This document shows, piece by piece, positions 12,056 through 16,126 of a stretch of 64,000 nt of DNA (its first letter is position 1; the number at the start of each line of letters is the position of its first letter). The stretch lies in the NCBI RefSeq assembly GCF_900157305.1, contig NZ_LS974202.1, positions 248,001 through 312,000 of the forward strand, read 5' to 3'. The stretch is from Mesotoga infera (GTDB taxonomy: Bacteria > Thermotogota > Thermotogae > Petrotogales > Kosmotogaceae). A program made the translations under genes and the position numbers. The notes beneath the pieces are model-generated. The model was not told the DNA's origin. It worked only from the letters and a program-made list of their open reading frames with translations, and ran no database searches.

Positions 12056-13104
12056 CTGTCCATAACCTCGACGTTCGGGTGTCTCTTCATTTTTTTGAGA
12101 AGCATCCTTTCCACTCTCCTAACCAGTCTGGTCCAGAAAAACTCTCTCTCGCTGAGAGGTTCGGTCTTTATGGTATAGGCTCCCAGTAGGTTGCCCATGA
12201 TTATATCCGTGAACAGCTGGTCACCTACCACGATCGTCTGGTAGGGGGGAATCTCCAGATCCTTCAACACTTTCTTCGCCTTAAAAGTCAACGGTTTTCT
12301 GGCCCTGCTGAGAACCTTTATCGTCGCAAGCTCATCGTCTATCTTGCCAAGGCGGCCTTTCTTTCCGTTGGATACAAGCACGATATTCATACCCAGTCTC
12401 TCTATCCTGCTTAGCAGAAGCTTCTTTTCCCTTGAGACGGTACTGGCACCCCATTCTTCCAGAGTGTTGTCGAAGTCGAAGAGAATCAGCCTGTAACCCG
12501 ATTCCTTCAGAGAATCGAAGTCTATGTCCATAACGTTATTGGCGAATCTGTGGGGCGTAGCCAGGCGGTTTATCCTGAAAATCCACCCTACAGTGAAAAA
12601 GAAAAGGAGGTACACACCAATGGAGATTCTTGCCATCACTCGTTTATACCACTTCTGGGAGATATCCACGATAGGTGATACCAATATCGAGTACATTCCC
12701 ATACGGTTGCCGGCTATTATGTCAGTGAAGAAGAGATCTCCGATTATAACGGTTTTTTCCGGTTTAGATTTCATCTCGCTCAGAACCCTTCTCAGCTCTT
12801 TGGTACCAGGTTTTCTCATCGAATGGTAAACCTTGAGCTGATTGCCGAAGATCTCTTTGAGATTTCTGACCCTCGATTGCGGTCCGTTGGTCACCACTCC
12901 GACTTTCATGCCCGACTGTATCAGGCGGTCTATCACTTCCTTATTTCTCATATCGAAAGGCTCGCGCCAGACGGCGATGGTATTGTCGTAGTCGAAGAGA
13001 ATGGTGTTGTATCCAAGTCGCTGGAGCCGGTTGTAGTCGATCTCCCTCACGTTCTCTGCCTTTTCTTTGGGAACGGCGTTATCAAGTATGTCCAGGATTC
13101 TCAC
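12052..13104 (-). CDS. Tandem YqeG-like HAD (IIIA-type) phosphatase with two HAD domains
   Basis: About 350 residues containing two complete HAD modules. Module 1 (about residues 30-155): FDYDNTI, VVTNG, RKPGTKELRR and IGDLFFTDIIAGN. A hydrophobic stretch (YLLFFFTVGWIF, about 165) links them. Module 2 (about 190-320): FDFDNTL, LVSNG, RKPLTFKAKK and VGDQLFTDIIMGN. Both keep the DxDN nucleophile block and the GDxxFTDI acid block. Ordinary YqeG has one module and about 170 residues. I place the start at a GTG at 13104; a TTG at 13122 is the longer choice. It overlaps the DUF4911 gene upstream by about 20 bases. Confidence 0.82.
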   Translation of the reverse strand: MRILDILDNAVPKEKAENVREIDYNRLQRLGYNTILFDYDNTIAVWREPFDMRNKEVIDRLIQSGMKVGVVTNGPQSRVRNLKEIFGNQLKVYHSMRKPGTKELRRVLSEMKSKPEKTVIIGDLFFTDIIAGNRMGMYSILVSPIVDISQKWYKRVMARISIGVYLLFFFTVGWIFRINRLATPHRFANNVMDIDFDSLKESGYRLILFDFDNTLEEWGASTVSREKKLLLSRIERLGMNIVLVSNGKKGRLGKIDDELATIKVLSRARKPLTFKAKKVLKDLEIPPYQTIVVGDQLFTDIIMGNLLGAYTIKTEPLSEREFFWTRLVRRVERMLLKKMKRHPNVEVMDR

Positions 13105-13327
13105 GTATTTCCACCACTTCAAGATCGATTTTCTTCTTTATACTCTCCAGAAAATTCATTGCCTCCTCCAGCAGGTCGGCCGGAACGATTATCTTTAGAA
13201 AACCGTCGTCGGTCACGTGCCTTATGTTTAGGAGGTTGTCTTCCGCCTCGGCTATGTAGCAGAGGACGTGAATGTCCACCGGTCTTATCCTTACGAAGAG
13301 ATCGTACTCCCTGGGTCCTTCGTTCAT
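13082..13327 (-). CDS. Small DUF4911-like protein
   Basis: 81 residues with an alternating beta-alpha pattern (YDLFVRIRPVDIHVLCYIAEAED, then a helix AMNFLESIKKK), resembling DUF4911; function unknown. Its ATG at 13327 directly abuts the right end of the IscB element and has no SD sequence immediately upstream (the preceding bases are GACGCTATTTAG). The iscB stop codon lies 10 bases upstream, so reinitiation after iscB translation is one way it could now be translated. A GAGGTG on the far side of the element probably was its original SD. It overlaps the HAD gene downstream. Confidence 0.68.
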   Translation of the reverse strand: MNEGPREYDLFVRIRPVDIHVLCYIAEAEDNLLNIRHVTDDGFLKIIVPADLLEEAMNFLESIKKKIDLEVVEIRENPGHT

Positions 13328-13333
13328 CTAAAT

Positions 13334-13377
13334 AGCGTCAGGAGACACCGTGCTTCAGCCCGGTGAGGAATGACGCT
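13334..13377 (-). repeat. Right-end hairpin of the IscB element
   Basis: On the - strand an outer stem AGCGTCA/TGACGCT, an internal loop, then CACCG/CGGTG, a G-A mismatch and a GC-TGAA-GC tip. Such subterminal imperfect hairpins are typical of IS200/IS605-related ends. The iscB stop codon (13340-13338) lies in its outer stem, so the last codons of iscB and the element end are the same DNA. Confidence 0.7.
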
Positions 13378-14597
13378 TCCCTCCTTTCACATAATAGTGA
13401 TGATGCTCTTTCTACAAGTTTTAGTTTACCTACACTGGCAGAACGACTGACGACTTCTCCGTCAAGAGTACGCAAATCAAAATATCCGGACGATCTGCGT
13501 CCAAACACAAAACATTCCCTATCAAGATATTCAACCTTATCGAACAATTGGTAACCGTGTATGTATCCAGGAGCCTTATTCTCTCTGCGGATACCTTTTT
13601 TTGGGTTTGTTTTGTGCAATTGCCTGTTTTGTTTGCGTACTTGTTTGAAGAAGTACCAACAATCACTTTCTTTTGTAGATGGGTTTCCTGAGATGCACCT
13701 GGCATCTATACGGTGCGACTTTTCGAGATTGTGTTTAATTCGAACATTCTTGGTTATATAGCCAAAAGTCAGAGACACATTTGAATACAGTTCTTTTAGT
13801 TTGTTGTAGAAAGCCCATCGCATTATGTTCATCGATGCTGCGTCCCTGAAGGAAGAGTTGCGCTTGACTTTAAGTTCGATCTCCCCTTTATGGTATTTCC
13901 TATGACAGGTTTCGCATAGAGTAATCAAATTATCCGGAGAGTTCCCGCCACTCTTTCTCGACTCGATGTGGTGTACATTTAGAACCGGATCTTTCGACTT
14001 ACCATTACAGTGTTGACAGGTGTGTTTGTCCCTGAACAAAACATACTCCCTGACATTATAAAATCCGAGCTGTTCGCCTTGTTGGTAATCCTCGCCAAGA
14101 ATGTCGGGGTTCTTTATTTTCTGTATATCGAATTGAGCCACTTCTACTATTACTTTTGTGATCGGCAGGATGTCGTGCACCATCTTAACCACTTTAATGT
14201 GAGTGTCAATCTTGTTCTGTACCGACGGTGCTACCCAACCTTCAGGCTTTTTTCTATTGAGAAAACGAGATTGCCTGTAACGAGTCTTTCTGTTTCTTCT
14301 AGACCTTCTAAGCATCCTTCTGGTAGATAACAGATCCACAATATCTGTTCTCAATTCGACTTCTGCTGAAAATACTTCCCTGTTCTCAGTTGTAGCCGAT
14401 AGCCCTATTGTCTTACTTCCGGCATCTACACCGAGAATTACATCTTGTTTGTATCCAGAGGAACCGTACAACAACTGAATGGTGAATGGCGTTCTTTTAA
14501 CCACTTTAGCCTTCTGCTCTTTCAATAGCTTCCTTGCTTTCTGTGGTTTACAGGGCATTAGCGGTTTCCCGTGCCTGTTAATAACGTAGACTAACAT
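13338..14597 (-). CDS. iscB: IscB RNA-guided nuclease (Cas9-ancestor family)
   Basis: 419 residues in the canonical IscB order. PLMP domain: NRHGKPLMPCKPQKARKLL (residues 7-25). RuvC-I: ILGVDAGSKTIGLS with D58. Arginine-rich bridge helix: residues 93-115. RuvC-II: KVIVEVAQFD with E152. HNH: CxxC at 194/197, VHHIESRKSGG with H209/H210, and CETC at 228/231. RuvC-III: HRIDARC with H295 and D298. All catalytic residues of both nuclease domains appear intact, so it should cut both strands of DNA when loaded with omegaRNA. The ATG at 14597 has AAGGAGG 8 bases upstream. Base composition is more AT-rich than the flanking operon, fitting acquisition. It is not TnpB, which lacks the HNH insertion and the PLMP domain. 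Confidence 0.95.
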   Translation of the reverse strand: MLVYVINRHGKPLMPCKPQKARKLLKEQKAKVVKRTPFTIQLLYGSSGYKQDVILGVDAGSKTIGLSATTENREVFSAEVELRTDIVDLLSTRRMLRRSRRNRKTRYRQSRFLNRKKPEGWVAPSVQNKIDTHIKVVKMVHDILPITKVIVEVAQFDIQKIKNPDILGEDYQQGEQLGFYNVREYVLFRDKHTCQHCNGKSKDPVLNVHHIESRKSGGNSPDNLITLCETCHRKYHKGEIELKVKRNSSFRDAASMNIMRWAFYNKLKELYSNVSLTFGYITKNVRIKHNLEKSHRIDARCISGNPSTKESDCWYFFKQVRKQNRQLHKTNPKKGIRRENKAPGYIHGYQLFDKVEYLDRECFVFGRRSSGYFDLRTLDGEVVSRSASVGKLKLVERASSLLCERREASFLTGLKHGVS

Positions 14598-14605
14598 ATA
14601 GTCTG

Positions 14606-14840
14606 CCTCCTTACGGAGTAATTCTCCCATCGCCAATGTTATCCGACAGTTTCTCGTTAGCAGCACTGTCCCTACCCATCAGAACTGTTTAACCACTAAC
14701 CGCAGAGCGTAAGACTTGGGAACGCATCCTACGGTGCCTATACATTTGCCGGTAACGTAGTGCTCGAAACACTTAGAGTCAACAAGAGCTACTAGCTCAC
14801 GGCTTTCGCCGGGGGTCGTTGACAGACTGAACACCTCTAC
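14606..14840 (-). ncRNA. omegaRNA (HEARO-type) with 5' guide, upstream of iscB
   Basis: On the - strand the 5' part (about 14839-14824) is flank-derived guide. The scaffold opens with a three-way junction: GTCAAC (14823-14818) pairs with GTTGAC (14783-14778) and encloses CGGC-GAAA-GCCG (14811-14800) and GAGCT-AGT-AGCTC (14798-14786). Further helices: AGTGT/GCACT (14773-14759), GACAGT/ACTGTC (14670-14645) and a short GNRA-loop hairpin CTCC-GTAA-GGAG (14618-14607) that includes the iscB SD. Position, length and the 3' end at the SD agree with described omegaRNAs. Exact ends are uncertain by some bases. Confidence 0.82.
14607..14627 (-). promoter_or_regulatory. SD-sequestering switch hairpins before iscB
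   Basis: The block CTCC (14618-14615 on the - strand) can pair with the iscB SD GGAG (14610-14607) through a GTAA tetraloop, or with the upstream GGAG (14627-14624) through AATTA. The two hairpins exclude each other, so one masks and the other frees the ribosome binding site. Seen by hand pairing only. Confidence 0.45.
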
Positions 14841-16126
14841 TAGAGAAGTTCGGCAGCCAGACTGGCCAACTCGGACCTTTCGCCCCTTGTCAGAGTTATG
14901 TGCCCGGCGATGGGTTTGTCCACCATCCTCGAAGCCGCGTATGTCAAACCGTTGCTGAAAGCGTCGAGATAAGAGTTATCTATCTGGTAGGGATCTCCTA
15001 TCAGGACGATTTTCGTGTTTTCCCCCACTCTAGTAATTATAGTCTTTATTTCGTGAGGCGAGAGGTTCTGCGCCTCATCGATTATGAAGTACTGGTTCGG
15101 TATAGAACGACCCCTTATGTAACTCAAGACCTCAACCTGGAGTTGTTCTCCCTTCTTCATGAAGGCTTCGAGATCCATGCGCCTGTTGCCGAAAAGGATA
15201 TGCAGGTTGTCGATTATCGGTGTCATCCAAGGACTCATTTTCTCTTCCATTGATCCGGGAAGGTATCCTATATCCTGACCCATGGGGATTACCGGTCTGG
15301 CCACCAGTAGTCTCTCGTAACGTTTCTCATCGATAACCTTCCTGAGCCCGCAGGCCAGAGAAATCAGCGTTTTGCCTGTTCCGGCCATGCCGGGTATGAA
15401 AACAATTTTTATATCGTCGTCCAGAAGAAGCTCCATGGCCATCAACTGCTCGAGGTTTCTCGGCTTGATACCCCAGCTGGAGCTCTCCATATCCAGTCTC
15501 AAAGGCACCACGTTTTCCCTGTCGGGTGAGACTCTTCCTACGACACCATCTCCGAAATCTACGAATTCGTTGGCCTCCAGGCCTTCCTTGACCTCTCCGG
15601 CGGGGAGACCTTCCTCCAGGAGGAACCTTTCCATCAGTCCGGGATCTCGCACTGTCTCGACACCGGAAAGCCGGTCGTCTATCTCGACTCTGTCGTGAAG
15701 GTAATCTTCGGCTTTTAAGCCAAGTATGTCGGCCTTGACGCGCATGTTTATATCTTTGCTCACAAGTACGACTGAAAACTTCTCGCTGTCAACTAGCTCC
15801 ATGGTGTAAAGCAAAATGGCGTTGTCTTTGTAGCCGTTCGACGCGAAGGGAGGCAATTTACTTTTGAACTCGTTGAAAACGACTATACGTATCATGCCGC
15901 CCGATTCCGTTTTTATCCCCTCCACGAGACTGCCCTTCTCTCTCAGCGAATCGAGATATCTGCTCACTTTCCTGGCATTCTGACCCACCGATCCAGCGTT
16001 CTTCTTCAATTTGTCGATCTCCTCGAGAACGGGGAAGGGAATGATGATATTGTTATCTTCGAAGTTCATGAAACAGTATGGATCATGAACCAGAACATTT
16101 GTATCTAAAACGAAGTCCTTGACCAT
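14840..16126 (-). CDS. phoH: PhoH-family ATPase with N-terminal PIN domain (YlaK/PhoH2-like)
   Basis: 428 residues. The N-terminal 140 form a PIN ribonuclease domain: DFVLDTNVLVHDPYCF, a VLEEIDKLKK block and VVLVSKDINMRVKA. The C-terminal part is a PhoH P-loop ATPase: FIPGMAGTGKTLISLACG near residue 245 and YFIIDEAQNLSPHE near 350. PIN-PhoH proteins are RNA helicase/RNases in other bacteria. The DnaQ-like gene ends one base upstream of its start region. Its TAG stop touches the left flank of the IscB element, and the next gene in the original operon was probably DUF4911. Confidence 0.92.
   Translation of the reverse strand: MVKDFVLDTNVLVHDPYCFMNFEDNNIIIPFPVLEEIDKLKKNAGSVGQNARKVSRYLDSLREKGSLVEGIKTESGGMIRIVVFNEFKSKLPPFASNGYKDNAILLYTMELVDSEKFSVVLVSKDINMRVKADILGLKAEDYLHDRVEIDDRLSGVETVRDPGLMERFLLEEGLPAGEVKEGLEANEFVDFGDGVVGRVSPDRENVVPLRLDMESSSWGIKPRNLEQLMAMELLLDDDIKIVFIPGMAGTGKTLISLACGLRKVIDEKRYERLLVARPVIPMGQDIGYLPGSMEEKMSPWMTPIIDNLHILFGNRRMDLEAFMKKGEQLQVEVLSYIRGRSIPNQYFIIDEAQNLSPHEIKTIITRVGENTKIVLIGDPYQIDNSYLDAFSNGLTYAASRMVDKPIAGHITLTRGERSELASLAAELL

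Follow-up and report, generated by a model that had tools for sequence, protein, structure and literature searches.

A HEARO/iscB mobile element of Mesotoga infera was found inserted exactly between the native Shine-Dalgarno sequence (SD) and the start codon of a DUF4911 gene, and ribosome entry on that gene probably now proceeds via a replacement split ribosome binding site (RBS) in the right end of the element, which would belong to a kind that lands on start codons. Judged from sequence comparison, the pattern of displaced SD and start codon appears to be general among about 100 HEARO/iscB elements, with dozens of cases in bacteria and archaea. In the mechanism we propose, the IscB/HEARO transposon would target [A/G]TGA, and because this target is often a start codon, surviving insertions would typically lie between the host SD and ATG. 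The right end would then serve as a substitute RBS, composed in order of GAAAGGAGG, the end hairpin, a short AT-rich tail and the host ATG, in which the hairpin would fold out and leave about 8-13 nt between SD and AUG; a few lineages place the SD past the hairpin instead. In the copy analyzed here, the right end should supply ribosome entry for DUF4911.

The stretch of DNA analyzed (64,000 nucleotides, hereafter the window) covers positions 248001-312000 of the 2.97 Mb single-contig genome of Mesotoga infera, and the element occupies positions 13328-14823 of it on the minus strand, as do all other features described for the window. Its extent was determined from the empty site in a sister genome (G003) and from three other copies, complete or partial, elsewhere in the Mesotoga infera genome. 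The left end encodes the HEARO (omega) RNA (14618-14823), which matched Rfam RF02033 with 123.5 bits, above the gathering cut-off of 83. The adjoining open reading frame (13338-14666) was identified as iscB by its RRXRR (Pfam PF14239, 3.7e-69) and HNH (PF01844, 1e-9) domains together with the neighboring HEARO RNA, and its start codon is probably the ATG at 14595-14597, which has AAGGAGG ahead of it. Left-end HEARO RNA, iscB with RRXRR and HNH domains, a right-end hairpin, and insertion beside a short motif with no target duplication are features shared with HEARO/IscB (OMEGA) elements of the IS200/IS605 superfamily; unlike IS200/IS605, the element contains no transposase. Only two genes for Y1 transposase TnpA were found genome-wide (at 628 kb and 703 kb) and none in the element (261-263 kb), so the element would be non-autonomous. 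Upstream of the insertion lies a phoH/PIN gene (14840-16126; PF02562, PF13638), and the intact DUF4911 gene (13082-13327; PF16256), with its ATG at 13325-13327, follows the right end.

The exact insertion point was given by the sister genome, in which the DUF4911 site is empty and reads ...CTTTAGTAGAGGTGTTCA/ATGAACGAAGGACCC, with the slash marking the insertion point (in shorter form, ...TAGTAGAGGTGTTCA/ATGAAC). The filled site in the window reads ...CTCTAGTAGAGGTGTTCA(GTCT)GTCAAC...element...TGACGCTATTTAG/ATGAACGAAGGACCC, with shorter flanks of GAGGTGTTCA on the left and ATGAAC on the right. The element therefore sits precisely between the native SD AGAGGTG (14832-14838), which was recognized from the empty site and from other relatives, and the ATGA (13324-13327) that forms the DUF4911 start codon, while the tail ATTTAG (13328-13333) between the hairpin and the host ATG is missing at the empty site. 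In several other relatives, phoH is directly followed by the SD and the DUF4911 start. Two further empty sites were obtained, at gltX and at rplC. The gltX site reads GAAAGGAGAGTCT/ATGATG in the sister genome, compared to GAAAGGAGA/GTCAAC at the filled site of Mesotoga infera, and the rplC site reads CTCTGGAG/GTGAAAAAATG in relatives, where the target is GTGA and the host SD itself was cut. Since the native SD of DUF4911 has been left 1.5 kb upstream, ribosome entry on this gene must now come from the element. A GTCT of uncertain origin (14824-14827) stands beside the left end of the element; it is absent from the empty DUF4911 site of the sister genome and present at the empty gltX site of that genome, and it may have been left behind by the transposition reaction or during an earlier visit.

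The right end carries the candidate replacement, a near-perfect SD GAAAGGAGGG (13379-13388) within the last iscB codons and directly 5′ of the hairpin (13334-13377). A previous reading of the window, made from the sequence alone, had described this hairpin, AGCGTCA...TGACGCT, at exactly these coordinates; its 7-bp outer stem pairs 13371-13377 with 13334-13340, and its inner stem CACCG/CGGTG pairs 13361-13365 with 13346-13350. The iscB TGA (13338-13340) lies in the 3′ arm, at a position not conserved among relatives, and is separated by 10 nt from the DUF4911 ATG, also exactly as that reading had it. Its statement that DUF4911 lacks an SD, however, is true of the 10-nt spacer only. The close packing that it proposed was borne out insofar as the coding end, the element end and the host start codon all fall within about 60 bp, but not in its choice of coupling to iscB as the main mechanism.

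As single-stranded DNA, the hairpin is far more stable than its shuffled versions (z = -3.4, with 0 of 200 shuffles as good), and it represents the subterminal hairpin known from IS200/IS605. As RNA in an 86-nt context, the hairpin is the centroid structure, yet the total energy is no better than that of shuffles (z = 0.0), and its significance therefore rests mainly on its recurrence in relatives, whose stems vary yet pair internally. In the predicted fold of the window copy, both the SD (0.82 unpaired) and the ATG (0.83 unpaired) are mostly free of pairing. The distance from GGAGG to the ATG is 52 nt of sequence and 8 nt with the hairpin folded out, which is a split-RBS layout of the phage T4 type. 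We infer that ribosomes make use of the new SD, that folding of the hairpin joins it to the AUG, and that the arrangement is maintained because the host tolerates it.

HEARO/iscB elements were gathered from the phylum, from GTDB genomes and from viral contigs, and their surroundings were fetched. Ends were tabulated for 96 elements, with 14 of one family from a single genome (G018) kept apart as a control. Divergent ends were missed by a strict motif search, for which reason looser scans, the limits of homology between copies, and hand-checked anchors were used. Alignment of right ends by MAFFT misplaced the left arms, and stems were instead tested by comparing pairing within and between elements. 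A second set was taken from previously unused genomes, chiefly those of Clostridiales (G116), Selenomonadaceae (G110) and Erysipelotrichaceae (G111); its hairpins were located by scanning without any reward for ATGA or SD, after which family-like hairpins were picked by eye.

HEARO/iscB elements were found to land just 5′ of [A/G]TGA, usually a true start codon. ATGA/GTGA flanks of HEARO were reportedly noted by Weinberg et al. in 2009. The first ATG after the hairpin was ATGA in 70 of 80 elements, and this, together with the empty sites, corresponds to the precise insertion beside a fixed short motif, without target duplication, that is known for IS200/IS605. An open reading frame of at least 60 codons began at the first ATG past the hairpin in 56 of 80 elements, compared to 25.5% of other ATGA sites (p = 1e-16), and a host SD lay within the 20 nt immediately preceding the element at 35 of 67 distinct sites, compared to 214 of 1651 nearby windows (p = 1e-13), with the signal limited to roughly the last 15 nt. 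Similar values were obtained in the second set, both for open reading frames (20 of 27, p = 4e-8) and for host SDs (15 of 26, p = 1e-9). Displaced host SD and open reading frame occurred jointly in 47 of 93 elements and in 133 (4.4%) of 3013 control ATGA sites (p = 2e-35). These flank tests are largely independent, since each insertion event contributes host sequence of its own. Real genes stand behind the elements, with their starts at the element end; many match Pfam families, and ten others had NCBIfam matches beginning from residues 1-5, namely glutamyl-tRNA synthetase GltX (L035), MutL (L036), RimO (L187), ribosomal protein L3/rplC (L194), NadD (L081), PurH (L185), CinA (L188), MurG (L310), RnpA (L342) and GatB (L096). 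Several of gltX, rplC, murG, rnpA, gatB and nadD are essential in most bacteria.

The element's own SD recurs as well. In 69 of 80 elements, the 20 nt on the 5′ side of the hairpin include a strong SD, compared to 304 of 2044 interior windows, although this count overstates the independent evidence because the right-end SD is inherited within lineages. Nine of the other 11 elements carry an SD on the 3′ side of the hairpin and close to the ATG, as do Methanoperedens elements with CACGGAGTTTTATG and a second family in genome G067 with CGGAGGTGAA, so that 78 of 80 have one on one side or the other. The two positions are mutually exclusive (both in 3, neither in 2; Fisher p = 5e-8), a relation that comes from a handful of lineages only. 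SD and ATG are physically 47-94 nt apart, and with the hairpin folded out the spacing has a median of 10 nt (interquartile range 8-13). The outer arms vary from element to element, yet at least 5 pairs were formed in 77% of cases within an element against 15% for mismatched partners, where 77% is an upper estimate because hairpin ends were partly chosen by pairing. Retention of GGAGG merely as ERR codons of IscB was ruled out, as it occurs in all frames and outside the reading frame: it is read as ERR in many elements, as EGG in Exiguobacterium and as KEV, WEV or MEV in others, and in several elements (L172, L180, L211, L078) the iscB frame has already stopped before the SD. The SD was predicted to be unpaired at above 0.5 in only 63% of all elements; the conserved CCTCC of the hairpin offers GGAGG a pairing partner, and an SD-hiding, regulated conformation is thus possible. 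A few SD-less elements before open reading frames, in G116 (L279, L292) and in Moorena (L329, L330), also count against the proposed RBS. The prediction that SD-poor hosts would have SD-less ends draws on the two Moorena elements, which were new, and the Bacteroidales element L082, which does have GGAGG, stands against it.

An alternative, favored by the sequence-only reading, is that ribosomes finish iscB at the hairpin TGA and reinitiate at the DUF4911 ATG, so that host expression depends on translation of iscB. The 10 nt between stop and start in the window copy suit this explanation. Of 62 relatives whose iscB frame is long, 10 have a stop that overlaps the ATG, and 6 of 7 internally deleted iscB genes preserve the frame into the right end, which also suits it. 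This last count, small and post hoc, hints that translation into the element end is sometimes kept. In the same 62 relatives, however, the stop is not kept near the start: it lies anywhere between 107 nt ahead of the host ATG and 101 nt beyond it and variously precedes the SD, falls within the hairpin or the tail, overlaps the ATG or follows it, and because it is spread over about 200 nt, coupling to iscB cannot be the shared mechanism. Several elements, moreover, keep SD and hairpin though the iscB frame misses the SD or stops ahead of it; in short elements (L176, L188, L203, L316, L320), the SD is kept where no frame from the iscB start reaches it. We therefore regard reinitiation as an unlikely explanation, and in the window copy it is possibly an auxiliary to the split RBS, an addition at most. 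What stands of the earlier suggestion is that DUF4911 depends on the element, with its native SD 1.5 kb off, and the most likely route for this dependence would be the replacement split RBS.

It is less probable still that GGAGG and hairpin serve a Y1 transposase purely as DNA signals, for instance as a guide sequence beside the end hairpin, with no compensating RBS and with insertion at start codons resulting from the ATGA target. The ends of IS200/IS605 elements have subterminal hairpins with neighboring guide sequences, and the good folding of the hairpin as DNA and the conservation of TTCCTCC and TNTCC inside it fit such a signal. The family kept apart as a control bears on this explanation. 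Its 14 near-identical copies in G018 possess the hairpin yet lack a strong SD at the right end (with one exception at threshold), showed no excess of host SDs to their left, and in none of 13 cases had an open reading frame of at least 60 codons behind them; a family without the RBS is thus also one that is not found at gene starts. In G018, with at least 14 near-identical copies, and also in a subfamily of G116, elements have evidently multiplied without GGAGG, which speaks against GGAGG as a general transposition signal. In other lineages the SD lies beyond the hairpin, close to the ATG, and the essential genes behind insertions need an RBS. GGAGG possibly shares a role in transposition. In the G018 copies (L191-L219), which are not at gene starts, the shared sequence continues through AATGATAAA past the hairpin.

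That the insertion merely silences or weakens DUF4911, with the right-end SD being incidental, would agree with a native SD 1.5 kb away but is very improbable, as DUF4911 is intact, its protein has 96% identity to the counterpart in the sister genome, and the same layout stands before gltX, rplC, murG, rnpA, gatB and nadD.

The replacement split RBS preferred here resembles those of T4 genes 25 and 38, in which a distant SD and AUG are also joined by an intervening hairpin. The SD-AUG distance is shortened by the hairpin from 22 to 5 nt in gene 38 and from 27 to 11 nt in gene 25, and mutations that destabilize the structure lower initiation in both (PMC3014915). In T4, the arrangement is a fixed phage feature with a spacing of 22-27 nt, whereas in HEARO/iscB elements it spans 47-94 nt, is mobile and stands before unrelated genes. 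In the literature searched, neither an RBS at the end of such elements nor their placement between SD and ATG was described; the primary papers on HEARO, ISC, IscB and TnpB/IscB transposition were outside the search, and this negative result therefore carries little weight. We lean towards a wider view in which IscB/HEARO would be a start-codon-targeting class, placed between SD and AUG by its [A/G]TGA target and nearly silent before essential genes because a built-in split RBS takes over translation; the displaced native RBS would be the template of its guide RNA, and IscB would consequently cut alleles in which the original junction of RBS and ATG is retained.

If the proposed mechanism is true, it would explain how transposons of the Cas9-ancestor type persist before essential genes such as those for ribosomal protein L3, glutamyl-tRNA synthetase, MurG and RnpA, which would otherwise be expected to fall silent when an insertion takes away their RBS. 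IStrons, which combine a group I intron with a tnpB transposon, splice out of RNA and so lower the cost of insertion to the host gene. Both IStrons and the HEARO/iscB element would lessen this cost, the former by splicing and the latter by a translation start signal, so that the host would be spared at translation initiation, distinct from splicing. The elements would then constitute a natural and widespread set of hairpin-bridged RBSs, and they are predicted to rewire the expression of the genes behind them.

Three decayed copies were observed in the Mesotoga infera genome, at about 1.81 (L035), 2.10 (L036) and 1.51 Mb (L037). Those before gltX and mutL have in-frame internal deletions, while the copy at 1.51 Mb consists of little beyond the right end and stands before another open reading frame; since it is nearly the right end alone, the end may persist as a 5′ leader. 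Unusually heavy loads of HEARO were seen in G116 (the Clostridiales genome of L095), with at least 80 matches, and in G110 (the Selenomonadaceae genome of L079), with at least 24, which makes these genomes useful for tests of effects on expression. In one viral contig (L121), two group I introns (663-992 and 1542-1877) lie just upstream of the iscB element, and in two large viral contigs (L122 and L123, 4414-4663), the iscB element ends directly at a tRNA gene cluster rather than at a protein start.
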